This document shows positions 13,911 to 63,779 of a stretch of DNA of 64,000 bases, piece after piece. The translations under genes and the position numbers were made by a program. Each line of letters opens with the position of its first letter. Within the stretch, counting starts at the first letter, position 1. Source of the DNA: Ecdyonurus torrentis (Eukaryota > Arthropoda > Insecta > Ephemeroptera > Heptageniidae); contig OX439135.1 in assembly GCA_949318235.1 (NCBI GenBank), positions 23,328,957 to 23,392,956 on the forward strand, in the 5' to 3' direction. The notes under the pieces are model-generated. The model did no database searches. It had not been told where the DNA came from and worked only from the letters and a program-made list of their open reading frames with translations.

Positions 13911-13959
13911 GTCATCATAAAGTTTTTAAGTTTTCTTTTAAAATTTTAAGATATTAGTT

Positions 13960-15690: not shown

Positions 15691-16013
15691 ACATTTTTGT
15701 ATGATATGCAAGGTAGTATTGTTTAAAATAACCACTAGTTTGAAACGTAGTACTTTAATTGAGCTTGACTTGTGACTATATAAATTTTAAGAGTATAAGT
15801 TAAGGGTTTTTATACAAAATATGGCATCTTCAATAGCATCTTCAGTAGTAAGAAATTAACATAATTTACAAACTTAGCATAATGAGATGACCCAATGGCT
15901 AAGATCTATTTACATATAAATTATAATTAATAAAATATATATAAAACTTTTAGAGAATAAATTTGACCCAAAAATAAAAATTGTAAAAAAAGAGGTCATC
16001 ATTTTAATCTTTT

Positions 16014-16978
16014 ATCAAACTGATTTAGACCCCTGATAAGTTAAGCTTTTCAGAAATTATGTGAACTTTACCCTTAAAATAATTTCAAGGCCCACCACCG
16101 GGGGTTGAAAATTCAAAACGCATATTTGACCAAGTTTGGCATTTTTGGGAATTTTTATTTTTAGGTTAAAAAGTAGGTTATAATATGTCTAACATGTGTA
16201 CCAAGTTACAACTTGGGTGCTTTGTAACTTTAGGAGGAAAGTCCGGAAAAGTATGTCCGCCACCTATATTGTGAAAAAAGAGTAAATTTTAAAAATTCAT
16301 AAAAAATCGAAAAATGAAGCAAATGCAATGAAATTTGGTATATAGGTTCATATAAAATTATCAAAAATTTATAAATTTTTTGAAAAATTTTTGGTGCGAG
16401 ATTTGAATTTAAAAAAAGCCATCATAATAAAAATTAAATTAAATACAATTGTTTAGTTTATTTTTAAAAAAATATTAATAAAAAGTACTGAACAGTAATT
16501 TTAAGTGTATTAGATATGTATACTGACATTTTGAACAACAAATTGCAATCAACTTCATTTTTTAGTAGCATGACTTTTTTTTAATTCAAATTTCGCGCCA
16601 AAAAATTTTCAAAAAATTTCTAAATTTTTGATAATGTTATATGAACCTATATACCAAATTTCATTGCAGTTGCTTCATTTTTCGATTTTTTATGAATTTT
16701 TAAAATTTACTCTTTTTTCACAATATAGGTGGTGGACATACTTTTCCGGACTTTCCTCCTAAAGTTACAAAGCTCCCAAGTTGTAACTTGGTACACATGT
16801 TAGACATATTATAACCTACTTTTTAACCTAAAAATAAAAATTCCCAAAAATGCCAAACTTGGTCAAATATGCGTTTTGAATTTTCAACCCCCGGTGGTGG
16901 GCCTTGAAATTATTTTAAGGGTAAAGTTCACATAATTTCTGAAAAGCTTAACTTATCAGGGGTCTAAATCAGTTTGAT
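16014..16978. repeat. Foldback P, about 965 bp with 400-bp arms
   Basis: Left arm ATCAAACTGATTTAGACCCC is inverted at the right end (GGGGTCTAAATCAGTTTGAT). Further pairs include GGCCCACCACCGGGGGTTGA and AAGTCCGGAAAAGTATGTCC against their complements. Spacer of about 130-160 bp. Fragments recur at 22440-22600 (left arm) and 58690-58790 (right end). Confidence 0.88.
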
Positions 16979-27924: not shown

Positions 27925-28098
27925 TTAAGTGACATTTACAAGAACAAAGAACGAACCTTTAAAAGTGGTAATTATGTGTTGTTTACTTCACAGTTCAGTG
28001 CACCAGTGACGTCATAAAAATTTCGCTTCAAGAATCTCTTGCTTGCTTACCAAATATTTGTCACATATCAAATACAACCAGATACACCGACAATATAT

Positions 28099-28427
28099 TT
28101 TGTCACTGCCAACTGTACATACTTACATTGCAATTTTGTCACTGCCAACTGTACATACTTACATTGCAATTTTGTCACTGCCAACTGTACATACTTACAT
28201 TGTAATTTTGTCACTGCCAACTGTACATACTTACATTACAATTTTGTCACTGCCAACTGTACATACTTACATTGTAATTTTGTCACTGCCAACTGTACAT
28301 ACTTACATTACAATTTTGTCACTGCCAACTGAACATAGTCACATTACAATTTTGTCACTGCCAACTGTACATACTTACATTACAATTTTGTCACTGCCAA
28401 CTGTACATACTTACATTGCAATTTTGT
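28099..28427 (+). repeat. 36-bp minisatellite, short array (about 9 units)
   Basis: The unit contains TTTTGTCACTGCCAACTGTA and CATACTTACATTACAA. Nine tandem copies with GCAA/ACAA/GTAA variants and one GAACATAGTCACATT variant. Thirty-six bases equal twelve codons, so stop-free phases persist and create spurious frames. Confidence 0.98.
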
Positions 28428-31790: not shown

Positions 31791-34094
31791 TTGTCACTGC
31801 CAACTGTACATATTTACCTTGCAATTTTGTCACTGCCAACTGTACATACTTACATTACAATTTTGTCACTGCCAACTGTACATATTTACCTTGCAATTTT
31901 GTCACTGCCAACTGTACATACTTACATGGCAATTTTGTCACTGCCAACTGTACATACTTACATTGCAATTTTGTCACTGCCAACTGTACATACATTACAA
32001 TTTTGTCACTGCCAACTGTACATACTAACATTACAATTTTGTCACTGCCAACTGTACATACTTAGATTACAATTTTGTCACTGCCAACTGTACATACTTA
32101 CATTACAATTTTGTCACTGCCAACTGTACATACTTACATTACAATTTTGTCACTGCCAACTGTACATACTTACATTGCAATTTTGTCACTGCCAACTGTA
32201 CATACTTACATTACAATTTTGTCACTGCCAACTGTACATACTTACATTACAATTTTGTCACTGCCAACTGTACATACTTAGATTACAATTTTGTCACTGC
32301 CAACTGTACATACTTACATTACAATTTTGTCACTGCCAACTGTACATACTTACATTACAATTTTGTCACTGCCAACTGTACATACTTACATTACAATTTT
32401 GTCACTGCCAACTGTACATACTTAGATTACAATTTTGTCACTGCCAACTGTACATACTTACATTACAATTTTGTCACTGCCAACTGTACATACTTACATT
32501 ACAATTTTGTCACTGCCAACTGTACATACTTAGATTACAATTTTGTCACTGCCAACTGTACATACTTACATTACAATTTTGTCACTGCCAACTGTACATA
32601 CTTACATTACAATTTTGTCACTGCCAACTGTACATACTTACATTACAATTTTGTCACTGCCAACTGTACATACTTACATTACAATTTTGTCACTGCTAAC
32701 TGTACATACTTACATTACAATTTTGTCACTGCCAACTGTACATACTTAGATTACAATTTTGTCACTGCCAACTGTACATACTTACATTGCAATTTTGTCA
32801 CTGCCAACTGTACATACTTAGATTACAATTTTGTCACTGCCAACTGTACATACTTACATTACAATTTTGTCACTGCCAACTGTACATACTTACATTACAA
32901 TTTTGTCACTGCCAACTGTACATACTTACATTACAATTTTGTCACTGCCAACTGTACATACTTACATTACAATTTTGTCACTGCCAACTGTACATACTTA
33001 CATTGCAATTTTGTCACTGCCAACTGTACATACTTACATTACAATTTTGTCACTGCCAACTGTACATACTTACATTGCAATTTTGTCACTGTCAACTGTA
33101 CATAGTCACATTACAATTTTGTCACTGCCAACTGTACATACTTACTTTACAATTTTGTCACTGCCAACTGTACATACTTACATTACAATTTTGTCAATGC
33201 CAACTGTACATAATTACATTGCAATTTTGTCACTGCCAACTGTACATACTTACATTACAATTTTGTCACTGCCAACTGTACATACTTACATTACAATTTT
33301 GTCACTGCCAACTGTACATACTTACATTGCAATTTTGTCACTGCCAACTGTACATACTTACATTACAATTTTGTCACTGCCAACTGTACATAGTCACATT
33401 ACAATTTTGTCACTGCCAACTGTACATAGTCACATTACAATTTTGTCACTGCCAACTGTACATACTAACATTGCAGTTTTGTCACTGCCAACTGTACATA
33501 CTTACATTACAATTTTGTCACTGCCAACTGTACATACTTACATTACAATTTTGTCACTGCCAACTGTACATACTTACATTACAATTTTGTCACTGCCAAC
33601 TGTACATACTTACATTACAATTTTGTCACTGCCAACTGTACATACTTACATTACAATTTTGTCACTGCCAACTGTACATACTTACATTACAATTTTGTCA
33701 CTGCCATCTGTACATACTTACATTACAATTTTGTCACTGCTAACTGTACATACTTACATTACAATTTTGTCACTGCCAACTGTACATACTAACATTACAA
33801 TTTTGTCACTGCCAACTGTACATACTTACATTACAATTTTGTCACTGCCATCTGTACATACTTACATTACAATTTTGTCACTGCCAACTGTACATACTTA
33901 CATTACAATTTTGTCACTGCCAACTGTACATACTTACATTACAATTTTGTCACTGCCAACTGTACATACTTACATTGCAATTTTGTCACGGCTAACTGTA
34001 CATACTTACATTACAATTTTGTCACTGCCAACTGTACATACTTACATTACAATTTTGTCACTGCCAACTGTACATACTTACATTGCAATTTTGT
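31791..34094 (+). repeat. 36-bp minisatellite, long array (about 64 units)
   Basis: About 2.3 kb of the same unit as at 28099. Most units are identical. Variants include CTTAGATT (near 32062, 32278, 32422, 32530, 32746, 32818), AGTCACATT (33106, 33390, 33426) and one 4-bp-shortened unit (31986). Recurrence of the variants at multiples of 36 bp indicates block amplification. The long open frames here (up to 427 codons) are not genes. Confidence 0.98.
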
Positions 34095-41593: not shown

Positions 41594-42299
41594 AGCGTGG
41601 ACTCATGATAATATGGTGAACTTAACTCCAGTTGTGGTCCCTTATATATATAAAACCCTCTAGTACCATCGTAATAATACCTAGCACTCCTGTCTCACAG
41701 TGCTGATCACCAGTGCTAGATCGAAGTGTCAGTAAGCACCGCCCGGGGATGTACTGATCAACTTATCATTACGATTGGCTTCACCTTCTGTTCTGCAAGG
41801 GTCATTAACCTAATTGGCTTATATATATGTCAAAATCTTTCTGCATAGCAAATGTGTATAACATTTGATTTTGACATATATAACTCAATTAGGTTAATGA
41901 CCCTTGCAGAACAGAAGGTGAAGCCAATCGTAATGATAAGTTGATCAGTACATCCCCCCGCGGTGCTTACTGACACTTCGATCTAGCACTGGTGATCAGC
42001 ACTGTGAGACAGGAGTGCTAGGTATTATTACGATGGTACTAGAGGGTTATATATATATAAGAGACCACAACTGGAGTTAAGTTCACCATATTATCATGAG
42101 TCCACGCTTTTCCTAAGGTTAGAAGCTACGGTATATAAGTAAAGACTTGCAGAGCGTTCTGTTTATCTTTATATCTTTCCACTGATATAAACCTTTTTTT
42201 TAATATTTCTTTTGCACCCAAAGTCGGTCCGGCGTATTTTGGAAATCTGTGTGGGCACCTTCAATAGACGCGCAAAGCGTCAATAGCCCGCCGCAGGCT

Positions 42300-42337
<38 letters not shown>

Positions 42338-44360
42338 AAGTGATTATTTATAGGCAATTTAGTGTATAAAGTCAGTATGTCAGTGCAGATAGCTTTAAGA
42401 AAAAAATTAATGCCCTTTTATTTTATTTATTATTATTATTTTTTTAATTATTTTTCAAAAATAGTGGGAGGAAATTCTAAATTTTATTTTTACATGAAAT
42501 ATTTATGGCCAAAAATATTTTAAAAGGAACCTAATTATTCCCAACCATCGGCCTAAGTAACGTTGATATTTAGTATGTTAGGATAATTTGAGCAGCCAAG
42601 TTTTTTGTTTAAGGTGTTCTTTAAGGTGAACCTAATTGATATAATATATATTTTAAGAGTCGTACATATTCAGATGACTTCTCATTATCTAAAAAGAAAA
42701 CTTCCAAGCTGTAAATTGCTACTTAAAAGTTGATATTAACCACTTACAATATCATAAAATTTTCAAACAAACATTAGATATAAGAGAGAAAGTATTATTG
42801 AAAATAACCTGAGCTCTTACGGGACTAAATCTAAAAAAAATAATAATAATAAAAATAAAAAAAATAATCATATTAAAAGGTAAAATTTCAGTATATACGT
42901 TGATGCAATAATATAATATAAATTTTAAAATTAATTTAAAATATGTTGTAACTAATTTTTTTACTTAAGGCAGGAAAATTAGGTACTGCGGGATTTGACT
43001 TAAAAATTATAAAGAAAGAAATATCTGAATTTTTGCACAGTGATACATTAGGATATGGTATCTTAAAAAATGTAAAAATATATATTATAGGGGAGAGGTG
43101 GGTCACCTTGCTAGATTATAAATTATGATTTTTGGAAGTGTAATTTAAGTCTTATCAGAACCCATGTTAATTTCAATAATTATTTTCTCTTTTCTTTATT
43201 ATTGGCCAGGGTTCTCAAAAATTTATCATCTGGTATATATAGCTGTTTTAATTAGCTTTTAAATGTCATCATAAAGTTTTTAAGTTTTCTTTTAAAATTT
43301 TAAGATATTAGTTATATCTATATATCGTCAGTGGGATATAGAAACCTCGGATTAGGATTTTGAGTGTTTCTGAAGTTTGAATCGTCATAATTCAAAAATA
43401 AAAAGTTACAAAAAATTGAAATTATTTTTGTCATGCGGCTTATATTTCTGACAATACATTGTATTAATTTTCTATTTTTATTTCAAATAGTTCGCTCACA
43501 ATTCATCAATTAGTAGACTAAAACACCCTGTTTTCGCACTCTGTTAAAAAAAGTGAAATTAAAATTATTATTCCCATGCAACAGGCAGCTATAAAAATTT
43601 CAAATTAATATCATAGATTCAAGAAATGTTGCTTATTCTTAATGTACAGTTGAATTTTTTTTGCAAGCAACCCCTTTGCCAAAATTTGCAAAAATCGGAT
43701 ATCGCGTTCTTTTAATGTTTTGAAGCTCAAAATTATTTTAGGGGTGCAATTTTGAATTCTTAAAAGATTTATTTGCAATATACAAAGTTATTTTGAAAAT
43801 AACTAAAATTTATAAATTAATTAACTTATAGCCCCTGTTTTTACGCAAAAAGCAGTACATAAAATGCCTGATGACCGCAACCAGCAGTACAATAAATTTT
43901 TAAAAATTCATTTAATATAATAAAAATAAATTATTTACATTATTAGCAAATGAACATTTAAGAGATTCAAAATTGCACCCCTAAAATAATTTTAAGCTCC
44001 GGCCAAATCAACGTTGATATTTAGTTAGGGTATGACTATAATAAAGGAACAACTGTTTTGAAGCCGACTATAAGTGATTTCGGTCACATCTGCTTCCGTT
44101 TTGACTTACTGCGCATGCGTAGTAAGGAGAAACGGAAGCGGATGTGACCGAAATCGCTTATAGTCGGCTTCAAAACAGTTGTTCCTTTATTATAGTCATA
44201 CCCTAACTAAATATCAACGTTGATTTGGCCGGAGACGTTATAAATTAACCCTGAACTTACTCTAAACTTATATAAACACAAATCAAACTCACGTAAAGCC
44301 CTACGTTTAATACGAGTTATTTATTTAAAAAAAAATGATACAGTATAAATAAAAAAAGTT
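41594..44360. repeat. Array monomer 1 (core truncated by gap)
   Basis: The core runs to 42190, the E arm with hAT-A end to about 43320, the F half to 43998, and the D palindrome is at 43999-44232. The core has GATCACCAGTGCTAG (no ATC insertion). Confidence 0.93.
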
Positions 44361-45156
44361 TATATATCAGGTGGAGAGATATATAGATAAACAGAACGCT
44401 CTGCAAGTCTTTACTTATATACCGTAGCTTCTAACCTTAGGAAAAGCGTGGACTCATGATAATATGGTGAAATTAACTCCAGTTGTGGTCCCTTATATAT
44501 ATAAAACCCTCTAGTACCAACGTAATAATACCTAGCACTCCTGTCTCACAGTGCTGATCACCATCAGTGCTAGATCGAAGTGTCAGTAAGCACCGCCCGG
44601 GGATGTACTGATCAACTTATCATTACGACTAGCTTCACCTTCTGTTCTGCAAGGGTCATTAACCTAATTGGCTTATATATATGTCAAAATCTTTCTGCAT
44701 AGAAAATGTGTATAACATTTGATTTTGACATATATAACTCAATTAGGTTAATGACCCTTGCAGAACAGAAGGTGAAGCCAATCGTAATGATAAGTTGATC
44801 AGTACATCCCCCCGCGGTGCTTACTGACACTTCGATCTAGCACTGGTGATCAGCACTGTAAGACAGGAGTGCTAGGTATTATTACGATGGTACTAGAGGG
44901 TTATATATATATAAGAGACCACAACTGGAGTTAAGTTCACCATATTATCATGAGTCCACGCTTTTCCTAAGGTTAGAAGCTACGGTATATAAGTAAAGAC
45001 TTGCAGAGCGTTCTGTTTATCTTTATATCTTTCCACTGATATAAACCTTTTTTTTTTAAATTTTTCTTTTGCACCCAAAGTCGGTCCGGCGTATTTTGGA
45101 AATCTGTGTGGGCACCTTCAATAGACGCGTAAAGCGTCAATAGCCCGCCGCAGGCT

Positions 45157-45191
<35 letters not shown>

Positions 45192-47215
45192 AAGTGATTA
45201 TTTATAGGCAATTTAGTGTATAAAGTCAGTATGTCAGCGCAGATAGCTTTAAGAAAAAAATTAATGCCCCTTTTATTTTATTTATTATTATTATTTTTTT
45301 AATTATTTTTCAAAAATAGTGGGAGGAAATTCTAAATTTTATTTTTACATGAATATTTATGGCCAAAAATATTTTAAAAGGAACCTAATTATTCCCAACC
45401 ATCGGCCTAAGTAACGTTGATATTTAGTATGTTAGGATAATTTGAGCAGCCAAGTTTTTTGTTTAAGGTGTTCTTTAAGGTGAACCTAATTGATATAATA
45501 TATATTTTAAGAGTCGTACATATTCAGATGACTTCTCATTATCTAAAAAGAAAACTTCCAAGCTTTAAATTGCTACTTAAAAGTTGATATTAACCACTTA
45601 CAATATCATAAAATTTTCAAAAAAACATTAGATATAAGAGAGAAAGTATTATTGAAAATAACCTGAGCTCTTACGGGACTAAATCTAAAAAAAATAATAA
45701 TAATAAAAATAAAAAAAATAATCATATTAAAAGGTAAAATTTCAGTATATACGTTGATGCAATAATATAATATAAATTTTAAAATTAATTTAAAATATGT
45801 TGTAACTAATTTTTTTACTTAAGGCAGGAAAATTAGGTACTGCGGGATTTGACTTAAAAATTATAAAGAAAGAAATATCTGAATTTTTGCACAGTGATAC
45901 ATTAGGATATGGTATCTTAAAAAATGTAAAAATATATATTATAGGGGAGAGGTGGGTCACCTTGCTAGATTATAAATTATGATTTTTGGAAGTGTAATTT
46001 AAGTCTTATCAGAACCCATGTTAATTTCAATAATTATTTTCTCTTTTCTTTATTATTGGCCAGGGTTCTCAAAAATTTATCATCTGGTATATATAGCTGT
46101 TTTAATTAGCTTTTAAATGTCATCATAAAGTTTTTAAGTTTTCTTTTAAAATTTTAAGATATTAATTATATCTATATATCGTCAGTGGGATATAGAAACC
46201 TCGGATTAGGATTTTGAGTGTTTCTGAAGTTTGAATCGTCATAATTCAAAAATAAAAAGTTACAAAAAATTGAAATTATTTTTGTCATGCGGCTTATATT
46301 TCTGACAATACATTGTATTAATTTTCTATTTTTATTTCAAATAGTTCGCTCACAATTCATCAATTAGTAGACTAAAACACCCTGTTTTCGCACTCTGTTA
46401 AAAAAAGTGAAATTAAAATTATTATTCCCATGCAACAGTCAGCTATAAAAATTTCAAATTAATATCATAGATTCAAGAAATGTTGCTTATTCTTAATGTA
46501 CAGTTGAATTTTTTTTGCAAGCAACCCCTTTGCCAAAATTTGCAAAAAACGGATATCGCGTTCTTTTAATGTTTTGAAGCTCAAAATTATTTTAGGGGTG
46601 CAATTTTGAATTCTTAAAAGATTTATTTGCAATATACAAAAATTTATTTTGAAAATAACTAAAATTTATAAATTAATTAACTTATAGCCCCTGTTTTTAC
46701 GCAAAAAGCAGTACATAAAATGCCTGATGACCGCAACCAGCAGTACAATAAATTTTTAAAAATTCATTTAATATAATAAAAATAAAATATTTACATTATT
46801 AGCAAATGAACATTTAAGAGATTCAAAATTGCACCCCTAAAATAATTTTGAGCTCCGGCCAAATCAACGTTGATATTTAGTTAGGGTATGACTATAATAA
46901 AGGAACAACTGTTTTGAAGCCGACTATAAGTGATTTCGGTCACATCTGCTTCCGTTTTGACTTACTGCGCATGCGTAGTAAGGAGAAACGGAAGCGGATG
47001 TGACCGAAATCGCTTATAGTCGGCTTCAAAACAGTTGTTCCTTTATTATAGTCATACCCTAACTAAATATCAACGTTGATTTGGCCGGAGACGTTATAAA
47101 TTAACCCTGAACTTACTCTAAACTTATATAAACACAAATCAAACTCAAGTAAAGCCCTACGTTTAATACGAGTTATTTATTTAAAAAAAATGGTACAGTA
47201 TAAATAAAAAAAGTT
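44361..47215. repeat. Array monomer 2
   Basis: Core 44361-45044, D palindrome at 46854-47088. It has the ATC insertion GATCACCATCAGTGC and the spacer variant ACAAAAATTTATTTTG, both shared with monomer 3. Confidence 0.93.
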
Positions 47216-50200
47216 TATATATCAGGTGGAGAGATATATAGATAAACAGAAACGCTCTGCAAGTCTTTACTTATATACCGTAGCTTCTAACCTTAGGAAA
47301 AGCGTGGACTCATGATAATATGGTGAACTTAACTCCAGTTGTGGCCCCTTATATATATAAAACCCTCTAGTACCATCGTAATAATACCTAGCACTCCTGT
47401 CTCACAGTGCTGATCACCATCAGTGCTAGATCGAAGTGTCAGTAAGCACCGCCCGGGGATGTACTGATCAACTTATCATTACGACTAGCTTCACCTTCTG
47501 TTCTGCAAGGGTCATTAACCTAATTGGCTTATATATATGTCAAAATCTTTCTGCATAGCAAATGTGTATAACATTTGATTTTGACATATATAACTCAATT
47601 AGGTTAATGACCCTTGCAGAACAGAAGGTGAAGCCAATCGTAATGATAAGTTGATCAGTACCCCCGGGCGGTGCTTACTGACACTTCGATCTAGCACTGG
47701 TGATCAGCACTGTGAGACAGGAGTGCTAGGTATTATTACGATGGTACTAGAGGGTTATATATATATAAGGGACCACAACTGGAGTTAAGTTCACCATATT
47801 ATCATGAGTCCACGCTTTTCCTAAGGTTAGAAGCTACGGTATATAAGTAAAGACTTGCAGAGCGTTCTGTTTATCTTTATATCTTTCCACTGATATAAAC
47901 CTTTTTTTTTAAAATTTTCTTTTGCACCCAAAGTCGGTCCGGCGTATTTTGGAAATCTGTGTGGGCACCTTCAATAGACGCGCAAAGCGTCAGTAGGCCG
48001 CCGCAGGCTTGATTTTTTTTTTTTTTTTACCAAGTGATTATTTATAGGCAATTTAGTGTATAAAGTCAGTATGTCAGTGCAGATAGCTTTAAGAAAAAAA
48101 TTAATGCCCCTTTTATTTTATTTATTATTATTATTTTTTTAATTATTTTTCAAAAATAGTGGGAGCTAGGAAATTCTAAATTTTATTTTTACATGAATAT
48201 TTATGGCCAAAAATATTTTATAAGGAACCTAATTATTCCCAACCATCGGCCTAAGTAACGTTGATATTTAGTATGTTAGGATAATTTGAGCAGCCAAGCA
48301 AGGGCGGATCTAGGAATTTTGTTTGGGGGGGGCGATACCAGGGAAACTTTTCCAGTGTGGGGACGGGGGCAGGGGGCAGCCCGCCGCAGGCTAAAAATTT
48401 TTTAGGGACACGCCCCTTTTTGGGAAAAACACAAAATTAGTATACTTGAGAAAATAATTTTAAAATTATTTTAGTTTAATTTTTTATTTTTTTTATCGTG
48501 TTTTTTTTTTCACCCTTATTTAATGAATAATGACATTGAAAAATATGTGCAAACTGAAACCTTAAAAAAAAAAAAAATTAAATACTGCTTTTTTTTTTTT
48601 TTCTTCCTTCTTCTTTTTTTTTTGGTATTTCATATTTTTAAAATTCCAAATCTCTTTTAAATTTTATCTTATTACAGAGTAACCACAAGAGTTTTATATG
48701 CTTAATAAACGATTAGCAAGTTGTTAAATTTTAAATGACAAAAATAATTCACCTCAATTAATTTAAAAATTGAGCTCATAAGAATGAAAAAATTTTATTA
48801 AAAAAGTTTTATCCATAGGGCCTAATTTTTATCATGCAACTGAAATTTTTGCATAACAATTTTAATTGAGACTGAATTTGTCACCTATACAGAATTTTAA
48901 GAACCTTATAAAATAATAAGACTTTTGAACAAATTGGTTCAAAACAATAAACATAAAATTATAAAAGCAAGAACATGAAACATTAAATTTAATGGAGCTC
49001 ATCGTGGTTTAGCGCGCGGAAAAAGCTAAGAGTCCCCTAATTTAACATTACACTGATGAGGAAAAACACGTCTTTTGCGATTTTTGAGAAACTACTCCAC
49101 CGCGCGATCCTGGAGAAATTAGACATACTTTTGCATGTGTTTTTAGATATATCAATGTCAAAGAAATTTTTAACCCAATATAGCCTTTAATCTGTGATCA
49201 TGAGTAAGATTTATAAAAATAATAATAAATAAAATATAAAACGCAGAACTCCTTGAAAAGTTCAAATTTATTTTAAGGAGTTCGTTTCTTACAAGTGGTC
49301 CATTCTTGTTATTTTGCTAAATTTTCCTCAACAAATTGGTTTATTAGGGAGGGATGCGTGGGGGGGGGGGGGGCGAAGAAAGTAAAATAATTATAAGGTA
49401 CTATACTTTGCAGTGGTGTATTTTTATTGTTATCATTTTTATTAAGTTCAGGTTGCTGTACCCAAAAATGAAATTAAAAAAATTATATCTCAAAAACTAT
49501 CGTTACAATTGAACATAGCATCAAAGTGTTGGAAAATCTCCTTTGCTAATGCGAATTTACTGTGGTTTAAGAAAATACTAAAGATAAACTTTTAATGAAA
49601 AATAACTTTCATATTTTTTCCAGAACGCATTTGCCGAGAAAAAAAAAATCACAAATTGGCCCATTTTAAATATTTAATATATGCAATCTTCAATATTTTT
49701 TTCTTTGTAAAAATGTTAACTTTGTTTTAAATCTCAAATTCATTAAAAGAATAGATCTGCAGATTACGCTGGTATTTTGTTAAGAAGTTGATCAATTTAA
49801 TTTTGCACACGGTGAGCTTGAAATTTCGTATCTATACACGCTTAAGGGGGTTTATTTGCGAAAGATTTAATTTGAGCTGAAACTTGGAGTTTAGAGAATT
49901 AATGTTCTTTGGTTCATTTAAGCTAAAAAATGTCATAATTGAGTGTTACGACAAAAATGCTACCCTAAAGTACGGCCTTAAAAAATAAAATGAATCATGT
50001 ATTATATAGGTAAAAAAGAAATGCATTGTAGCTACGATTTTTATTTCATTTTTTTGGAGATCATCTTTCTTTCCTTTCCTTTTTTTTTTTTTTTTTTTTC
50101 TTTTTTTTTTTTTTTGCTTTCTTTCTTTTTTTTTTTTTTTTTTGCTTTCTTTCTCTTTTTTTTCCTCTTTTTTTTCCGCCCACGTGGGCCGTTTGGGGGG

Positions 50201-52001
50201 GGCGATCGCCCCCCCCCCCCTGGATCCGCCCTTGCAGCCAAGTTTTTTGTTTAAGGTGTTCTTTAAGGTGAACCTAATTGATATAATATATATTTTAAGA
50301 GTCGTACATATTCAGATGACTTCTCATTATCTAAAAAGAAAACTTCCAAGCTGTAAATTGCTACTTAAAAGTTGATATTAACCACTTACAATATCATAAA
50401 ATTTTCAAACAAACATTAGATAAGAGAGAAAGTATTATTGAAAATAACATGAGCTCTTACGGGACTAAATCTAAAAAAAAAAATAATAATAAAAATAAAA
50501 TAATAATCATATTAAAAGGTAAAATTTCAGTATATACGTTGATGCAATAATATAATATAAATTTTAAAATTAATTTAAAATATGTTTGTAACTAATTTTT
50601 TTACTTAAGGCAGGAAAATTAGGTACTGCGGGATTTGACTTAAAAATTATAAAGAAAGAAATATCTGAATTTTTGCACAGTGGTACATTAGGATATGGTA
50701 TCTTAAAAAATGTAAAAAAATATATTATAGGGGAGAGGTGGGTCACCTTGCTAGATTATAAATTATGATTTTTGGAAGTGTAATTTAAGTCTTATCAGAA
50801 CCCATGTTAATTTCAATAATTATTTTCTCTTTTCTTTATTATTGGCCAGGGTTCTCAAAAATTTATCATCTGGTATATATAGCTGTTTTAATTAGCTTTT
50901 AAATGTCATCATAAAGTTTTTAAGTTTTCTTTTAAAATTTTAAGATATTAGTTATATCTATATATCGTCAGTGGGATATAGAAACCTCGGATTAGGATTT
51001 TGAGTGTTTCTGAAGTTTGAATCGTCATAATTCAAAAATAAAAAGTTACAAAAAATTGAAATTATTTTTGTCATGCGGCTTATATTTCTGACAATACATT
51101 GTATTAATTTTCTATTTTTATTTCAAATAGTTCGCTCACAATTCATCAATTAGTAGACTAAAACACCCTGTTTTCGCACTGTGTTAAAAAAAGTGAAATT
51201 AAAATTATTATTCCCATGCAACAGTCAGCTATAAAAATTTCATATTAATATCATAGATTCCAGAAATGTTGCTTATTCTTAATGTACAGTTGAATTTTTT
51301 TTGCAAGCAACCCCTTTGCCAAAATTTGCAAAAAACGGATATCGCGTTCTTTTAATGTTTTGAAGCTCAAAATTATTTTAGGGGTGCAATTTTGAATTCT
51401 TAAAAGATTTATTTGCAATATACAAAAATTTATTTTGAAAATAACTAAAATTTATAAATTAATTAACTTATAGCCCCTGTTTTTACGCAAAAAGCAGTAC
51501 ATAAAATGCCTGATGACCGCAACCAGCAGTACAATAAATTTTTAAAAATTCATTTAATATAATAAAAATAAAATATTTACATTATTAGCAAATGAACATT
51601 TAAGAGATTCAAAATTGCACCCCTAAAATAATTTTGAGCTCCGGCCAAATCAACGTTGATATTTAGTTAGGGTATGACTATAATAAAGGAACAACTGTTT
51701 TGAAGCCGACTATAAGTGATTTCGGTCACATCTGCTTCCGTTTTGACTTACTGCGCATGCGTAGTAAGGAGAAACGGAAGCGGATGTGACCGAAATCGCT
51801 TATAGTCGGCTTCAAAACAGTTGTTCCTTTATTATAGTCATACCCTAACTAAATATCAACGTTGATTTGGCCGGAGACGTTATAAATTAACCCTGAACTT
51901 ACTCTAAACTTATATAAACACAAATCAAACTCAAGTAAAGCCCTACGTTTAATACGAGTTATTTATTTAAAAAAAATGGTACAGTATAAATAAAAAAAGT
52001 T
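47216..52001. repeat. Array monomer 3 (carries hAT insertion)
   Basis: Core 47216-47899 with variant GTACCCCCGGGCGG, D palindrome at 51641-51874. A hAT element at 48299-50234 interrupts the E arm. Confidence 0.93.
48299..50234. mobile_element. Non-autonomous hAT element, 8-bp target duplication
   Basis: CAGCCAAG at 48291-48298 is repeated at 50235-50242. Inverted ends are CAAGGGCGGATCTAGG and CCTGGATCCGCCCTTG. The other monomers show the uninterrupted site GAGCAGCCAAGTTTT. 1936 bp, no transposase; the only frame (about 49997-50254) is a poly(T)-driven run of F and L. Internal G/C runs near both ends (49361-49373, 50194-50220). Confidence 0.96.
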
Positions 52002-54843
52002 TATATATCAGGTGGAGAGATATATAGATAAACAGAAACGCTCTGCAAGTCTTTACTTATATACCGTAGCTTCTAACCTTAGGAAAAGCGTGGACTCATG
52101 ATAATATGGTGAACTTAACTCCAGTTGTGGTCCCTTATATATATAAAACCCTCTAGTACCAACGTAATAATACCTAGCACTCCTGTCTCACAGTGCTGAT
52201 CACCAGTGCTAGATCGAAGTGTCAGTAAGCACCGCCCGGGGATGTACTGATCAACTTATCATTACGACTAGCTTCACCTTCTGTTCTGCAAGGGTCATTA
52301 ACCTAATTGGCTTATATATATGTCAAAATCTTTCTGCATAGCAAATGTGTATAACATTTGATTTTGACATATATAACTCAATTAGGTTAATGACCCTTGC
52401 AGAACAGAAGGTGAAGCCAATCGTAATGATAAGTTGATCAGTACATCCCCCCGCGGTGCTTACTGACACTTCGATCTAGCACTGGTGATCAGCACTGTGA
52501 GACAGGAGTGCTAGGTATTATTACGATGGTACTAGAGGGTTATATATATATAAGAGACCACAACTGGAGTTAAGTTCACCATATTATCATGAGTCCACGC
52601 TTTTCCTAAGGTTAGAAGCTACGGTATATAAGTAAAGACTTGCAGAGCGTTCTGTTTATCTTTATATCTTTCCACTGATATAAACTTTTTTTTTAATATT
52701 TCTTTTGCACCCAAAGTCAGTCCGGCGTATTTTGGAAATCTGTGTGGGCACCTTCAATAGACGCGCAAAGCGTCAATAGCCCGCCGCAGGCTTGATTTTT
52801 TTTTTTTTTTTTTTTTTTTCACCAAGTGATTATTTATAGGCAATTTAGTGTATAAAGTCAGTATGTCAGTGCAGATAGCTTTAAGAAAAAAATTAATGCC
52901 CCTTTTATTTTATTTATTATTATTATTTTTTTAATTATTTTTCAAAAATAGTGGGAGGAAATTCTAAATTTTATTTTTACATGAATATTTATGGCCAAAA
53001 ATATTTTATAAGGAACCTAATTATTCCCAACCATCGGCCTAAGTAACGTTGATATTTAGTATGTTAGGATAATTTGAGCAGCCAAGTTTTTTGTTTAAGG
53101 TGTTCTTTAAGGTGAACCTAATTGATATAATATATATTTTAAGAGTCGTACATATTCAGATGACTTCTCATTATCTAAAAAGAAAACTTCCAAGCTGTAA
53201 ATTGCTACTTAAAAGTTGATATTAACCACTTACAATATCATAAAATTTTCAAACAAACATTAGATATAAGAGAGAAAGTATTATTGAAAATAACCTGAGC
53301 TCTTACGGGACTAAATCTAAAAAAAAAAATAATAATAAAAAAAAAAAAAAATCATATTAAAAGGTAAAATTTCAGTATATACGTTGATGCAATAATATAA
53401 TATAAATTTTAAAATTAATTTAAAATATGTTGTAACTAATTTTTTTACTTAAGGCAGGAAAATTAGGTACTGCGGGATTTGACTTAAAAATTATAAAGAA
53501 AGAAATATCTGAATTTTTGCACAGTGATACATTAGGATATGGTATCTTAAAAAATGTAAAAAAATATATTATAGGGGAGAGGTGGGTCACCTTGCTAGAT
53601 TATAAATTATGATTTTTGGAAGTGTAATTTAAGTCTTATCAGAACCCATGTTAATTTCAATAATTATTTTCTCTTTTCTTTATTATTGGCCAGGGTTCTC
53701 AAAAATTTATCATCTGGTATATATAGCTGTTTTAATTAGCTTTTAAATGTCATCATAAAGTTTTTAAGTTTTCTTTTAAAATTTTAAGATATTAGTTATA
53801 TCTATATATCGTCAGTGGGATATAGAAACCTCGGATTAGGATTTTGAGTGTTTCTGAAGTTTGAATCGTCATAATTCAAAAATAAAAAGTTACAAAAAAT
53901 TGAAATTATTTTTGTCATGCGGCTTATATTTCTGACAATACATTGTATTAATTTTCTATTTTTATTTCAAATAGTTCGCTCACAATTCATCAATTAGTAG
54001 ACTAAAACACCCTGTTTTCGCACTCTGTTAAAAAAAGTGAAATTAAAATTATTATTCCCATGCAACAGTCAGCTATAAAAATTTCAAATTAATATCATAG
54101 ATTCCAGAAATGTTGCTTATTCTTAATGTACAGTTGAATTTTTTTTGCAAGCAACCCCTTTGCCAAAATTTGCAAAAAACGGATATCGCGTTCTTTTAAT
54201 GTTTTGAAGCTCAAAATTATTTTAGGGGTGCAATTTTGAATTCTTAAAAGATTTATTTGCAATATACAAAGTTATTTTGAAAATAACTAAAATTTATAAA
54301 TTAATTAACTTATAGCCCCTGTTTTTACGCAAAAAGCAGTACATAAAATGCCTGATGACCGCAACCAGCAGTACAATAAATTTTTAAAAATTCATTTAAT
54401 ATAATAAAAATAAAATATTTACATTATTAGCAAATGATCATGTAAGAGATTCAAAATCGCACCCCTAAAATAATTTTGAGCTCCGGCCAAATCAACGTTG
54501 ATATTTAGTTAGGGTATGACTATAATAAAGGAACAACTGTTTTGAAGCCGACTATAAGTGATTTCGGTCACATCTGCTTCCGTTTTGACTTACTGCGCAT
54601 GCGTAGTAAGGAGAAACGGAAGCGGATGTGACCGAAATCGCTTATAGTCGGCTTCAAAACAGTTGTTCCTTTATTATAGTCATACCCTAACTAAATATCA
54701 ACGTTGATTTGGCCGGAGACGTTATAAATTAACCCTGAACTTACTCTAAACTTATATAAACACAAATCAAACTCAAGTAAAGCCCTACGTTTAATACGAG
54801 TTATTTATTTAAAAAAAATGGTACAGTATAAATAAAAAAAGTT
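52002..54843. repeat. Array monomer 4
   Basis: Core 52002-52683, D palindrome 54483-54716. No ATC insertion; spacer variant ACAAAGTTATTTTG. Confidence 0.93.
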
Positions 54844-57682
54844 TATATATCAGGTGGAGAGATATATAGATAAACAGAAACGCTCTGCAAGTCTTTACTT
54901 ATATACCGTAGCTTCTAACCTTAGGAAAAGCGTGGACTCATGATAATATGGTGAACTTAACTCCAGTTGTGGGCCCTTATATATATAAAACCCTCTAGTA
55001 CCAACGTAATAATACCTAGCACTCCTGTCTCACAGTGCTGATCACCATCAGTGCTAGATCGAAGTGTCAGTAAGCACCGCCCGGGGATGTACTGATCAAC
55101 TTATCATTACGACTAGCTTCACCTTCTGTTCTGCAAGGGTCATTAACCTAATTGGCTTATATATATGTCAAAATCTTTCTGCATAGCAAATGTGTATAAC
55201 ATTTGATTTTGACATATATAACTCAATTAGGTTAATGACCCTTGCAGAACAGAAGGTGAAGCCAATCGTAATGATAAGTTGATCAGTACCCCCGGGCGGT
55301 GCTTACTGACACTTCGATCTAGCACTGGTGATCAGCACTGTGAGACAGGAGTGCTAGGTATTATTACGATGGTACTAGAGGGTTATATATATATAAGGGA
55401 CCACAACTGGAGTTAAGTTCACCATATTATCATGAGTCCACGCTTTTCCTAAGGTTAGAAGCTACGGTATATAAGTAAAGACTTGCAGAGCGTTCTGTTT
55501 ATCTTTATATCTTTCCACTGATATAAACCTTTTTTTTTAATTTTTCTTTTGCACCCAAAGTCGGTCCGGCGTATTTTGGAAATCTGTGTGGGCACCTTCA
55601 ATAGACGCGCAAAGCGTCAATAGCCCGCCGCAGGCTTGATTTTTTTTTTTTTTTACCAAGTGATTATTTATAGGCAATTTAGTGTATAAAGTCAGTATGT
55701 CAGTGCAGATAGCTTTAAGAAAAAAATTAATGCCCCTTTTATTTTATTTTTTATTATTATTTTAATTATTTTTCAAAAATAGTGGGAGGAAATTCTAAAT
55801 TTTATTTTTACATGAAATATTTATGGCCAAAAATATTTTAAAAGGAACCTAATTATTCCCAACCATCGGCCTAAGTAACGTTGATATTTAGTATGTTAGG
55901 ATAATTTGAGCAGCCAAGTTTTTTGTTTAAGGTGTTCTTTAAGGTGAACCTAATTGATATAATATATATATTTTAAGAGTCGTACATATTCAGATGACTT
56001 CTCATTATCTAAAAAGAAAACTTCCAAGCTGTAAATTGCTACTTAAAAGTTGATATTAACCACTTACAATATCATAAAATTTTCAAACAAACATTAGATA
56101 TAAGAGAGAAAGTATTATTGAAAATAACATGAGCTCTTACGGGACTAAATCTAAAAAAAAAAATAATAATAAAAATAAAAAAAATAATCATATTAAAAGG
56201 TAAAATTTCAGTATATACGTTGATGCAATAATATAATATAAATTTTAAAATTAATTTAAAATATGTTGTAACTAATTTTTTTACTTAAGGCAGGAAAATT
56301 AGGTACTGCGGGATTTGACTTAAAAATTATAAAGAAAGAAATATCTGAATTTTTGCACAGTGATACATTAGGATATGGTATCTTAAAAAATGTAAAAATA
56401 TATATTATAGGGGAGAGGTGGGTCACCTTGCTAGATTATAAATTATGATTTTTGGAAGTGTAATTTAAGTCTTATCAGAACCCATGTTAATTTCAATAAT
56501 TATTTTCTCTTTTCTTTATTATTGGCCAGGGTTCTCAAAAATTTATCATCTGGTATATATAGCTGTTTTAATTAGCTTTTAAATGTCATCATAAAGTTTT
56601 TAAGTTTTCTTTTAAAATTTTAAGATATTAGTTATATCTATATATCGTCAGTGGGATATAGAAACCTCAGATTAGGATTTTGAGTGTTTCTGAAGTTTGA
56701 ATCGTCATAATTCAAAAATAAAAAGTTACAAAAAATTGAAATTATTTTTGTCATGCGGCTTATATTTCTGACAATACATTGTATTAATTTTCTATTTTTA
56801 TTTCAAATAGTTCGCTCACAATTCATCAATTAGTAGACTAAAACACCCTGTTTTCGCACTCTGTAAAAAAAAAGTGAAATTAAAATTATTATTCCCATGC
56901 AACAGTCAGCTATAAAAATTTCAAATTAATATCATAGATTCAAGAAATGTTGCTTATTCTTAATGTACAGTTGAATTTTTTTTGCAAGCAACCCCTTTGC
57001 CAAAATTTGCATAAAACGGATATCGCGTTCTTTTAATGTTTTGAAGCTCAAAATTATTTTAGGGGTGCAATTTTGAATTCTTAAAAGATTTATTTGCAAT
57101 ATACAAAGTTATTTTGAAAATAACTAAAATTTATAAATTAATTAACTTATAGCCCCTGTTTTTACGCAAAAAGCAGTACATAAAATGCCTGATGACCGCA
57201 ACCAGCAGTACAATAAATTTTTAAAAATTCATTTAATATAATAAAAATAAATTATTAACATTATTAGCAAATGAACATTTAAGAGATTCAAAATTGCACC
57301 CCTAAAATAATTTTGAGCTCCGGCCAAATCAACGTTGATATATTTAGTTAGGGTATGACTATAATAAAGGAACAACTGTTTTGAAGCCGACTATAAGTGA
57401 TTTCGGTCACATCTGCTTCCGTTTTGACTTACTGCGCATGCGTAGTAAGGAGAAACGGAAGCGGATGTGACCGAAATCGCTTATAGTCGGCTTCAAAACA
57501 GTTGTTCCTTTATTATAGTCATACCCTAACTAAATATCAACGTTGATTTGGCCGGAGACGTTATAAATTAACCCTGAACTTACTCTAAACTTATATAAAC
57601 ACAAATCAAACTCAAGTAAAGCCCTACGTTTAATACGAGTTATTTATTTAAAAAAAATGGTACAGTATAAATAAAAAAAGTT
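54844..57682. repeat. Array monomer 5
   Basis: Core 54844-55526 with both the ATC insertion and the GTACCCCCGGGCGG variant of monomer 3, D palindrome 57320-57555. Spacer as in monomers 1 and 4. Confidence 0.93.
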
Positions 57683-58353
57683 TATATATCAGGTGGAGAG
57701 ATATATAGATAAACAGAAACGCTCTGCAAGTCTTACTTATATACCGTAGCTTCTAACCTTAGGAAAAGCGTGGACTCATGATAATATGGTGAACTTAACT
57801 CCAGTTGTGGTCCCTTTATATATAAAACCCTCTAGTACCAACGTAATAATACCTAGCACTCCTGTCTCACAGTGCTGATCACCAGTGCTAGATCGAAGTG
57901 CCAGTAAGCACCGCCCGGGGATGTACTGATCAACTTATCATTACGATTGGCTTCACCTTCTGTTCTGCAAGGGTCATTAACCTAATTGGCTTATATATAT
58001 GTCAAAATCTTTCTGCATAGCAAATGTGTATAACATTTGATTTTGACATATATAACTCAATTAGGTTAATGACCCTTGCAGAACAGAAGGTGAAGCCAAT
58101 CGTAATGATAAGTTGATCAGTACATCCCCCCGCGGTGCTTACTGACACTTCGATCTAGCACTGGTGATCAGCACTGTGAGACAGGAGTGCTAGGTATTAT
58201 TACGATGGTACTAGAGGGTTATATATATATAAGAGACCACAACTGGAGTTAAGTTCACCATATTATCATGAGTCCACGCTTTTCCTAAGGTTAGAAGCTA
58301 CGGTATATAAGTAAAGACTTGCAGAGCGTTCTGTTAATCTATATATCTCTCCA
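57683..58353. repeat. Last array core
   Basis: Ends the array. It is followed by the same flank as core copy 2 (CAGATATATAACATTTTTGT against TAGATATATAACATTTTTGT), so the right boundary is conserved between both loci. Confidence 0.92.
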
Positions 58354-59288
58354 CTAGATATATAACATTTTTGTATGATACGCAAAGTAGTATTGTTTAA
58401 AATAACCACTAGTTTGAAACGTAGTACTTTAATTGAGCTTGACTTGTAACTATATAAATTTTAAGAGTATAAGTTAAGGTTTTTTTTACAAAATATGGCA
58501 ACTTCAATAGCATCTTCAGTAGTAAGAAATTAACATAATTTACAAACTTAGCATAATGAGATGGCCCAATGGCTAAGCTCTATTTACATATAAATTATAA
58601 TAAATAAAATATAATTAAAACTTTTAGAGAATAAATTTGACCCAAATATAAAAATTGTAAAAAAAGGTCATCATTTTAATCTTTTATCCCTCGGTGGTGG
58701 ACCTTGAAAATGATTTTAGGAAAAAAAAAGTCACATAATTTCTTAAAAGTTCAATTTATTTAGTATCTAAATCAGTTTTTTGCAAATTTCTAATTTAATT
58801 AATTATAAATATATAATTTGCCACTTTTAACACACCTCTGCAAAAAATTAAAAAATACAAAGTACCGTGTTTCCCGAAAATTTTTAAATTTTCCAAAAAA
58901 AAAAAAAAAAAAATGTAAGATGTTTTGAGGTAGTCCTTAAGCATAATCAAATGGCATAGTTTATAACTTAAGGCCCGATGGTTGGGAATAATTAGCTTCC
59001 TTCGAAATATTTGAGCCATATACATTTCATTCAAAAAATTTACAATTTCCTCCCACTATTTTTGAAAAATAATTATATATTTATATATATAAAAAAAAAG
59101 AAAGTAAAAAGAACATTATTAATTTTTTTCTTAAAGCTATCTGCACTGACACACTAAATTTAAACACTAAATTGCCTATAAATATGGTGCTATTGGCGCT
59201 TTGAGCGTCTATTGAAAGGGCCCACACAAATATGCCCAAATATGACGGACCGCCTTTGGGTGAAAAAAGAAATAATAAAAAAAAAGTT
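58354..59288. repeat. Array right flank, duplicate of 15.69-17.63 kb
   Basis: 58354-58690 matches 15691-16010. Foldback P is reduced to its right end (58690-58790). 58850-59270 matches 17215-17620, with the hAT-A end. Confidence 0.8.
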
Positions 59289-61273: not shown

Positions 61274-62376
61274 TACCCGGATAAAAAATATTCATTTCTA
61301 TATAAATTCTTTTTAAAAAAATAAACATTCAATGAGAAGCGCTTCTAAATAATTTTTTTTTGTTTCAATAAAAAAATCTTTTAGAACTGTTTTTATTTTT
61401 ATTAATTTTTATGTTTTTAGAACTCTTTTAGAACTTTTTTCTCACGGTAATTATATTTACAGCCCCTGATGCTTTCTATATTTGAGTTCTTTTTAAATAA
61501 AAATTAAAAGCGTTCTTTTTCAGTTCTTTTTGAATAAAAAAAATTTAAAAAGCTTTTTGAGTTCCTTTCTTATAGTATATATATTTTTTTTTATACCTCC
61601 CCTCCCTGCCTTTTATATAATATAGTCCAAAATATTTAAGCTCGTGTAGCTCGTGCTCGTGCTACATTCCCAGCGGAACGTATCTGATCTTAGAATCATC
61701 TTTCGATTTCCTGTCGTTTGGCGCTAATTTTGAGGCCCAATCTTTAATAATTTCCGAGATAATTGTAATTTTTGGACCAGATTTCAGGTTAAAGGGGTGA
61801 AGGAGGCGTTATTTTAAAATTCTGACGAGTTACTCCAGTTTAGATCTCGACGAGATATAATCGTGTCTAAAATATATGAAACTGATCGTTTAAAAATTGG
61901 AGGAGTGGCAGCTCCAAAACCATTTCATAGGGTCGATTTTCCTTTATAACTAAAGTTTTTTTTGTCCGATTTGAATTAAATTAAATATGTAGTACTCCCT
62001 TTTAATTAACATGCGAAAGAATTGCTACTTAAAAAAAACGTTGAAATGTTTTCTGTTCCTACATAAAATGCAAAAAAACGGCAAACGATTCTTTTAAGAC
62101 GATTTTTTTTACTACACAAAGTCTGAAACGCAATTTATTTAAAATCACGTTAAAAAAGCTAAAAATTTTTTTTATTAATTGAACAAATAAATTATTATCA
62201 AATTTTAAAATTACGCGCATTTATAATAAAAATATTAAATGAATGGCAATTATTTAGAAATCATTTTTATAAAATAATTTAGTGGAACTCTTGTGGAATG
62301 CATTTTATTTAAAAAGAACTCACAAAGAATTGTTTAAAAATTTACCAAATAATATTAACTAATATTAACTATTAAT
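61274..62376. other. AT-rich DNA with recurrent AGAACT motifs
   Basis: 61280-61590 and 62280-62345 are dominated by AGAACT/AGTTCT words in A/T runs; the pattern resumes at 63333-63779 after the retrozyme, so it was probably one region. 61630-61960 is more complex and looks unique; no frame or RNA is recognised there. Confidence 0.5.
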
Positions 62377-62669
62377 GTCCATGGTTAGAGAGAGTCGCGC
62401 CGAGTATTTTGGTGTGACGTTTTTGCTAATTAATTTACTTTTGTAAGCCAAAAAACTAATTAACTAATCTCTATTTGCTTACGAGCTGCTAGTTCATACC
62501 ACCGTGCATACGATGCACTATGTGTCATATTTCGGCCTGGGTTTGAATATTTTTTTCTCTCTCTTTTGCGGGGTCCCTGAACTAACAAAGCTCATTATCT
62601 CCCATTCCCCAAAAATCTATCACCCCTCTTTTTTATGTGTTTATATCTATCTTTTAATTATCAATCTAT
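62377..62669 (+). repeat. Retrozyme direct repeat, upstream copy
   Basis: It begins GTCCATGGTTAG, i.e. at the hammerhead cleavage triplet and the 3' strand of stem I. The upstream half of the ribozyme is absent from this copy. Confidence 0.93.
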
Positions 62670-62875
62670 CGCAAAGTCGATTTTTTCCTAATTATATATT
62701 TATATCTATCGCAATGTCGATTATTTTTTCCTTTTCCTCTCTTTTGTGTTGTCCATATCTTTACCCTCTATTTTATCCCGCTATCTTTCTATTTTTCTAC
62801 TCCCTGGCTTACATAAAGTTAATTTTTTGGTATATTCGTTGCATTTCAAATATTTGGCGCGCCTCGGAGTAGCAG

Positions 62876-62924
62876 CCAATCCGCGGTGGAAGCTAAGCGT
62901 CCACCGAGGCTGCGGGTATATAAG
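62876..62924 (+). promoter_or_regulatory. CCAAT and TATA boxes of the retrozyme
   Basis: CCAAT at 62876-62880 and GGTATATAAGG around 62917-62924, about 40 bp apart in a locally GC-rich stretch. A start about 30 bp further down would place the stem-loop and ribozyme at the 5' end of the transcript. Inferred from motif and spacing only. Confidence 0.6.
62884..62906 (+). other. Hairpin before the TATA box
   Basis: CGGTGGA (62884-62890) pairs with TCCACCG (62900-62906) around the nine-base loop AGCTAAGCG. Confidence 0.6.
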
Positions 62925-62946
62925 GCCGCGCAGTCTATGCTACTCC

Positions 62947-62991
62947 AGCAGTCGATCTCTGACCAGGGCTACTCTCTGGTAGATCACTGCT
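62947..62991 (+). ncRNA. Stem-loop just upstream of the hammerhead
   Basis: AGCAGT pairs with ACTGCT, GATCT with AGATC, and ACCAG with CTGGT, giving 16 pairs with a 1-nt and a 3-nt bulge and a nine-base loop GGCTACTCT. It ends one nucleotide before the outer stem I of the ribozyme. Function unknown. Confidence 0.75.
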
Positions 62992-62992
62992 T

Positions 62993-63057
62993 CTCTCTCC
63001 TCACCATGCTGATGAGGCCCAGCAGGCCGAAACAGCGTTGTCCATGGTTAGAGAGAG
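62993..63057 (+). ncRNA. Type I hammerhead self-cleaving ribozyme
   Basis: The complete motif reads: stem I 5' strand ACCATG (63003-63008); CTGATGA core (63009-63015); stem II GGCC-CAGCA-GGCC (63016-63028); GAA (63029-63031); stem III ACA-GCGT-TGT (63032-63041); cleavage nucleotide C63042; stem I 3' strand CATGGT (63043-63048). Stem I extends outward: CTCTCTC (62993-62999) pairs with GAGAGAG (63051-63057) across an internal loop, as in natural hammerheads where this loop contacts loop II. All invariant core bases are present. The 3-bp stem III is short, as in Penelope-type ribozymes, which are thought to act partly as dimers. Predicted cleavage is after 63042. Confidence 0.92.
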
Positions 63058-63332
63058 TCGCGCCGAGTATTTTGGTGTGACGTTTTTGCTAATTAATTTA
63101 CTTTTGTAAGCCAAAAAACTAATTAACTAATCTCTATTTGCTTACGAGCTGCTAGTTCATACTACCGTGCATACGATGCACTATGTGTCATATTTCGGCC
63201 TGGGTTTGAATATTTTTTTCTCTCTCTTTTGCGGGGTCCCTGAACTAACAAAGCTCATTATCTCCCATTCCCCAAAAATCTATCACCCCTCTTTTTTATG
63301 TGTTTCTATCTATCTTTTAATTATCAATCTAT
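63040..63332 (+). repeat. Retrozyme direct repeat, downstream copy
   Basis: It differs from the upstream copy at two visible places (CATACTACC for CATACCACC; TTTCTATC for TTTATATC) and ends at ATCAATCTAT, where AGAACT-rich host DNA resumes. Confidence 0.93.
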
Positions 63333-63779
63333 TTTAGAACTCTTATAGAATTTAACATGATTTATAGAACTTATTTTAAAAATAAAAAAGAACTCGAAAA
63401 GAACTCGGTTGAAAATTATTATTTAATATTATTTTTAAAAATTCAATTGGAATTGTTTTTCAAATAAAAAATTCATTTAGAACTGCGAGCAAAATAAATA
63501 ATAAATTAAAAAAAACTTATAGATTTCATTATAAAAGTAGGCTTTATTTAGAATTGTGTCATTTTATTTTATTTTGATTTATTTATTTTAGAGAATTTAT
63601 ATAGAAGTGTAAAATATAAAAAGAAATTAAATAGAATGGTGCTGAAAAGTTCTATTTAATGGTAGAACTGTTTAGAACTGCTTTTTTAATAAAAAAATGT
63701 AAAAGAATTCAAATTTATTCAAAAAAACTTCAAAGAATTCATTTAAAAATTATATAGAACTGGAATATTTTTATGCGGT
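63333..63779. other. AT-rich AGAACT-motif DNA, right of the retrozyme
   Basis: Same low-complexity texture as 61280-61590 and 62280-62345 (AGAACT words, A/T runs). No gene. Confidence 0.5.

Follow-up and report, generated by a model that had tools for sequence, protein, structure and literature searches.

A 663-bp repeat joined by a hammerhead ribozyme

Towards the end of the window, by which we mean the whole 64,000-nucleotide stretch of Ecdyonurus torrentis DNA that was analysed, a 663-bp repeat unit is followed by a partial second unit, and a type I hammerhead ribozyme lies across the junction between the two (Table 1). The sequence common to both copies begins at 62376 and, counted from 63039, the two are identical at 292 of 294 positions, in keeping with the young age that an earlier reading of the letters alone (the sequence-only reading) had ascribed to the repeat. 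The unit has a GC content of 41%, and its TATATAA box sits where GC is locally high (0.59 in the 150 nt preceding ribozyme C3), the strong hairpin at 62947-62991 lying near the start site that would be expected from this box.

Table 1. Features of the 663-bp unit and of its junction ribozyme (window positions; u numbers count from the ribozyme cut)
Feature	Position	Strand	Details
Repeat unit, between successive ribozyme cuts	62380..63042	+	663 bp; u1 = 62380
First 3'-end site	62664..62682	+	ATCTAT/CGCAAAGTCGATT; putative reverse-transcription start
Second 3'-end site	62704..62722	+	ATCTAT/CGCAATGTCGATT; duplicated motif 40 bp on
CCAAT box	62876..62880	+	sequence box
TATATAA box	62917..62923	+	92 nt before ribozyme C3
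Strong hairpin immediately 5' of ribozyme	62947..62991	+	45 nt, z -4.1
Type I hammerhead ribozyme	62993..63057	+	across unit junction; predicted cut 63042/63043
Outer stem I	62993-62999/63051-63057	+	7 bp, evaluated pairs
Stem I internal loop	between outer and inner stem I		CUC/UA, evaluated pairs
Inner stem I	63003-63008/63043-63048	+	6 bp, evaluated pairs
24-codon ORF	63006..63080	+	MLMRPSRPKQRCPWLERVAPSILV; begins within stem I (CACCATG)
Core CUGAUGA	63009-63015	+	sequence
Stem-loop II	63016..63028 (stem 63016-63019/63025-63028)	+	4 bp; GGCC-CAGCA-GGCC
Core GAA	63029-63031	+	sequence
Stem III	63032..63041 (63032-63034/63039-63041)	+	3 bp, loop GCGU
Cleavage triplet GUC	63040-63042	+	predicted cut after 63042
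Partial second unit, u1-u290	63043..63332	+	ends in first 3'-end cluster
Hairpin immediately 3' of ribozyme	63058..63080	+	z -4.1

No reverse transcriptase was seen in the unit or in the 64-kb window. The longest stop-to-stop open stretches of the unit have 134, 96 and 85 codons, and a Pfam search with these three returned nothing better than E 0.17. The 24-codon ORF is possibly the remnant of the start of an ORF from a Penelope-like element (PLE). The ORF with reverse transcriptase and GIY-YIG by which a PLE is recognised is thus lacking, so that the element can only be a non-autonomous derivative of this class. Two further classes were considered: an LTR or solo LTR was set aside (the window copy has no target-site duplication, TSD, and the unit lacks a terminal CA), and a tRNA-derived SINE was rejected, there being a B-box-like stretch near 62540 but no tRNA found by ARAGORN (bacterial settings).

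Elsewhere in the window two NUBPL exons lie at 4124-5129 and match animal NUBPL, a stick insect giving the best organism-named match, followed by beetles and a thrips, which agrees with the animal origin proposed beforehand. A 36-bp satellite occupies 31791-34094 (about 64 copies) and 28097-28427 (about 9 copies) with 95-96% matches. Long near-identical repeats, spaced by about 2.85 kb, are found at 12132-16016, 41594-48298 and 50234-58688; their internal palindromes are scored by Rfam as microRNA look-alikes, below the gathering score.

The hammerhead at 62993-63057 is real. Sequence and pair evaluation show the core CUGANGA/GAA/NUH with three stems, open at stem I, and every core base and stem is confirmed, as the sequence-only reading had claimed in assigning all invariant bases to a type I ribozyme; also its further helix, extending stem I through an internal loop, is found as the outer stem I, and its cut position after 63042 agrees with the site predicted from the GUC triplet. 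The stem I internal loop and loop II are potential partners of a loop-loop contact, and the fourth base of loop II is C or T among copies (T in 18/50). The same stem-loop II, GGCC-CAGCA-GGCC, occurs in two hammerhead cores of viral contigs (L008 and L027). When the RNA is folded to minimum energy without constraints, a non-catalytic structure comes out as more stable by 4.3 to 6.4 kcal/mol, according to the stretch taken, in a model that contains neither tertiary contacts nor protein.

The chance that such features co-occur at random had been judged very small, and the estimates obtained here support this judgement. The spaced core alone is present in 4 of 100 shuffled windows; core, stems II and III and NUH together occurred five times in 20 Mb of first-order Markov sequence, equivalent to 0.016 per 64 kb. 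With the factors for an inner stem I of at least 6 bp (0.0036) and an outer helix of at least 7 bp (0.026), the full hammerhead has a combined probability of about 1.5e-6 per window, assuming independence.

The Rfam covariance scan that the sequence-only reading had put forward as a check went against it: the best model, HH9, scores 27.1 bits against a gathering score of 52 (E 5.8e-5 over 251 bases), and a scan of the whole 64-kb window reported no hammerhead. A scan of 18 out of the 32 viral-contig loci that match a strict hammerhead core pattern served as control; none of the 18 reached any hammerhead gathering score, so that the miss at 62993-63057 is weakly informative; since only 5/18 have at least 6 contiguous stem I pairs, some of these control loci may themselves be non-working ribozymes. 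Given that all 18 fall below threshold, Rfam was set aside as a judge of the ribozyme either way. Around the core, the viral-contig sequences are unrelated to the 663-bp unit as far as their flanks were examined, and the 25-nt heart of the ribozyme had no match in the genome contig collection.

Copies, ends and target duplications in the host genome

Evidence on copy number and mobility is new here, as the sequence-only reading rested on one copy. A query spanning 62370-63340 gave 69 matched pieces in the 503-Mb host assembly, a search that copies made solely of cut RNA would escape, and the 40 best-scoring of 554 first-look candidate loci were all fetched. Old or rearranged copies are for this reason under-represented, and the sample is biased to junction-bearing copies because the query contained the junction. 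Each of the 40 loci has at least one unit junction, 52 in total; the core descriptor matched at 46 of these, and at 39 stems II and III and the 6-bp inner stem I are kept as well. Among the 49 ribozymes alignable over the full 65 nt, the window's included, 43 have all tested core bases intact and 23, counting the window itself, are identical to the window ribozyme. Where the core is altered, this is most often by a G12-to-A change at a CpG (5/50 in the substitution survey, 5 among the 49 full-length ribozymes), as expected from decay. Across the genome the exact 34-nt heart of the ribozyme has 84 matches, and its reversed control none.

The survey of substitutions, from which the window copy (L033) was excluded, evidences an uneven divergence along the unit. 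The rates are 0.4% at u1-15, 1.5% at u614-663 and 0.75% in the 5' hairpin (62947-62991), and 4.1%, with 6% gaps, at u41-330. The lowest 30-bp bins, at 0.7-1.1%, are those from u541 to u630 and u1-30; the bin u631-660, in the ribozyme, has 2.1% substitutions, more than half of them from a single site in loop II. Low divergence is also observed outside the ribozyme, at u331-420 (1.6-1.8%) and u151-180 (1.3%). The low values of leader and ribozyme would fit selection on both, short of proof, and exchange between copies could likewise homogenise such stretches.

The outer 3' ends in the fetched loci number 65: 29 fall at u270-290, another 29 at u313-331 and 7 elsewhere. Two clusters, some 40 bp from each other, account for 58/65; this count omits a remote piece of locus L034, with which the clusters become 28 and 30 (the piece counting as an end at u324). 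The peaks coincide with the two copies of ATCTAT/CGCAAWGTCGATT, spaced 40 bp, which agrees with the optional 30-40-bp tail and the two internal start sites characteristic of PLEs. Two opposed outer 3' ends, that is, head-to-head copies, are found at 25 of the 40 loci, and the PLE arrangement of a promoter-bearing pLTR, a partial tandem and an adjacent inverted copy is recovered, the promoter being recognised by its sequence boxes only.

Flank words of 12-18 bp are shared at 18/40 loci, against 2/1560 mismatched flank pairs, and are read as target duplications, the short TSDs being a further trait of PLEs. These words may take in a few bases of the element, and low-complexity ones (e.g. at L038) were dropped; ends were defined by BLAST and are uncertain by a few bases, with HSPs below 25 bp dropped. 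The remote L034 piece was left out of the flank and orientation analyses, and a piece of L050 about 650 bp away was kept as an end. The window copy stands in a single orientation.

Insertions starting at u1, the footprint of a cut RNA, were sought in the 40 loci, and only the window copy starts there, the GTC in the three bases before its u1 also matching the unit. Other 5' starts are at u8 (L039) and u13 (L037), the remainder being scattered. Pieces that stop within the tail are also present in inverted partners and are uninformative on template cutting.

Penelope-like enzymes and a second hammerhead family

With a PLE reverse-transcriptase probe, 524 candidates in the host genome yielded 142 matches, many of them in open frames of about 850 aa (longest, 915 aa). 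One such element, PLE A (L106), has an 873-codon frame that begins in one copy of a 213-bp direct repeat and extends into the second, with RVT_1 above the Pfam cut-off and GIY-YIG below it, and its relatives include an 836-aa protein of Anolis carolinensis (42% identity). The 213-bp repeat carries CCAAT, TATATAA and, at the start codon, a hammerhead-like motif that was found by eye, has one extra base beside the core and is unrecognised by Rfam. A second element, PLE B (L105, G000:C12:32151500-32157500), has an 846-codon frame in a head-to-tail 2775-bp tandem whose units are 99.97% identical, suggestive of recent copying or amplification of PLEs. A search of the genome with the GIY-YIG family returned two matches, read as an SLX1-like gene and another protein and not as PLEs; this miss means little because PLE A scores below the cut-off of that family.

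DNA of the 663-bp unit gave no blastn hit at E 0.01 in 30 of the reverse-transcriptase loci, PLE A and PLE B have only 11-16-nt matches with it, and its end motif is absent from all 32 fetched PLE loci. No autonomous partner was thus found among these 32 loci, and its existence is inferred.

The genome holds a second hammerhead family, whose ribozyme pattern (stem II GUCC) has 1105 matches genome-wide and none in the reversed control, a number to be read next to the 84 given above with the different strictness of the two patterns in mind. In the array that was read the unit is of 901 bp and its copies stand in tandem and head-to-head; the loci considered were L107-L109 and L078, and some of the matches form head-to-head tandems. 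The family resembles the 663-bp one in the order of CCAAT, TATATAA, hammerhead and tail, in these arrangements and in the end motif TATCGCMAAGTCGATYTTTT, and differs from it in a loop-less stem III (ACCGGU) and in its body sequence; its ribozyme scores 30.0 bits with the Rfam model Hammerhead_1, against a gathering score of 34, which likewise lessens the weight of the Rfam miss at 62993-63057. One array (overlapping loci L108/L109) ends at u318, directly before TATCGCCAAGTCGAT, which aligns with the end motif of the 663-bp family (20 nt, 90%; E 0.002, ranking first among the matches listed). The ends of the copies at L107 and L078 are at u261-262, within a run of T that makes their alignment uncertain. 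The ATG inside the ribozyme of this family reads, by eye, M-S-P-R and then stop, and the PLE B frame near its start also reads M-S-P-R, a resemblance that is possibly due to chance.

The end motif common to the 663-bp and 901-bp families points, from few ends, to one enzyme that would read it. We hold the chances to be about even that the genome contains hammerhead-bearing PLE satellites, represented by these two families, which would have nothing in common but ribozyme core, promoter order and the start signal TATCGCMAAGTCGATYTTTT; the odds are lowered because the second family ends at the signal in one array only and two copies end elsewhere. If true, such satellites would count as evidence from the genome that animal retrozymes are moved by PLE enzymes which recognise a short signal, and would also imply that the copied template is RNA in which the hammerhead is uncut or closed again.

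Proposed mode of movement and relation to known elements

The 663-bp element is PLE-like in its ends and arrangement and retrozyme-like in that its units are non-coding and have type I hammerheads at their joins. We consider it likely that it is a non-autonomous PLE or, equivalently, a retrozyme mobilised by PLEs, which is copied in trans. As it fails both the PLE coding test and the size range of retrozymes, it was classed as a PLE derivative that is non-autonomous and has retrozyme character. The kinship with PLEs and retrozymes proposed from the single copy is strengthened by the two-site 3' ends, the head-to-head copies, the TSDs and the presence of PLE reverse transcriptases in the genome.

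A course of events can be proposed on this basis. To judge from the CCAAT and TATA boxes, a Pol II-type promoter would start an RNA some tens of nucleotides before the ribozyme, and in this RNA the 5' hairpin and hammerhead would be followed by a tail of some 290-330 nt. The enzyme, a PLE reverse transcriptase encoded elsewhere in the genome, would cut both strands of AT-rich DNA, and the cDNA would start internally at either of the duplicated tail motifs, as suggested by the clustering of ends at two sites and by the head-to-head arrangement, insertion then yielding the 12-18-bp target duplications seen at 18/40 loci. By analogy with known retrozymes, the hammerhead may cut tandem transcripts to units, maybe ligated to circles. 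From the order of the parts, inserted copies that cross a junction would derive from RNA uncut at that point or closed again: copying being taken to start downstream and to run back through the ribozyme, each inserted junction would report such a template. The low divergence suggests that both leader and ribozyme are needed, and the ribozyme could act in unit release and circle formation or in making 5' ends.

Several parts of this scheme are described for PLEs, whose reported traits include two adjacent internal start sites with an optional 30-40-bp tail, as well as the extension of both strands of the target and partial copies in inverse orientation (PMC11167929; PMC3846280). According to the account of the Poseidon element of Anolis carolinensis, PAc, in PMC11167929, it resembles the 663-bp element in having a hammerhead at the junction of pLTR and ORF start and copies arranged as tandems or partial tandems. 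Further shared points are two neighbouring internal sites at which reverse transcription starts, with a tail as the outcome, the extension of both target strands and AT-rich targets. PAc differs in encoding RT and GIY-YIG in one ORF, and its main start sites are 111-118 bp into the ORF, whereas the 663-bp element ends about 270-331 bp past the cut. The PAc hammerhead cut in vitro only with protein added; ribozyme mutants left insertion in vitro unchanged, and unprocessed RNA was proposed as the main substrate (PMC11167929). The Adineta vaga elements Pen2a and Pen3a, as presented in PMC3846280, likewise have a pLTR with a TATA box, an optional 31-bp tail and an adjacent inverted pLTR; unlike the 663-bp element they have or had an ORF, and the TSDs of Adineta vaga Penelope are of 8-10 bp as compared with the 12-18-bp shared words found here. 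Pen3a pLTRs moved a foreign gene in trans (PMC3846280); the term hammerhead is absent from the main text of that paper. As to the ribozyme itself, stem III of the 663-bp element, with 3 bp, exceeds the minimal helix III given for PLE ribozymes (PMC7761336, PMC6155905).

The reading that comes next is that of a classical animal non-LTR retrozyme, in which tandem transcripts are cut to monomers, these are circularised by RtcB and any available non-LTR machinery copies the circles, specific PLE signals playing no part. The metazoan retrozymes of PMC7229834 are indeed alike in their non-coding tandem units with type I hammerheads, in a GC content below 50%, in target duplications of more than 4 bp and in the PLEs of the host genome, and the 663-bp element, with hammerheads at its junctions, no coding gene seen and 41% GC, shares this character. 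Its unit is nevertheless of 663 bp against the 150-450 bp stated there, it has a CCAAT-TATA promoter-like leader, and its two end sites and 25/40 head-to-head loci are not predicted by a randomly primed circle, all of which makes the classical mode unlikely. Far less probable is that the unit is a solo or partial pLTR remnant of a full PLE, its coding part lost or unassembled and itself not independently mobile. The order of promoter, ribozyme and start codon is that of PLE pLTRs, and partial tandems are normal for PLEs; against this, all 40 fetched loci join unit to unit with no intervening ORF and 18 have TSDs, indicating that the short form itself inserts, in a sample fetched by match to the short form, from which ORF-bearing copies could have escaped.

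The reading as a PLE-mobilised, non-autonomous element bears on a proposal already made, as PLEs are named as strong or likely candidate movers of animal retrozymes on account of shared hammerheads, tandem copies and co-existence (PMC7229834; PMC7761336). Ribozyme-bearing elements that encode no protein here carry PLE-type ends, opposed copies and TSDs in a genome with open PLE frames, so that the suspected link of retrozyme-like elements to PLE reverse transcriptases gains evidence from ends and arrangement. Also, the unexplained role of the hammerhead in PLEs becomes testable on a 663-bp non-coding template, and the duplicated start motif, now named, is directly testable. No published description of the element was recognised in the literature listings searched. 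Finally, that a chance hammerhead match sits in a repeat spreading by DNA-level amplification is scarcely credible: the Rfam score under the gathering threshold and the more stable alternative fold would agree with it, but the probability per window estimated above, the intact core in 43/49 copies, the TSDs and the defined ends speak against it.
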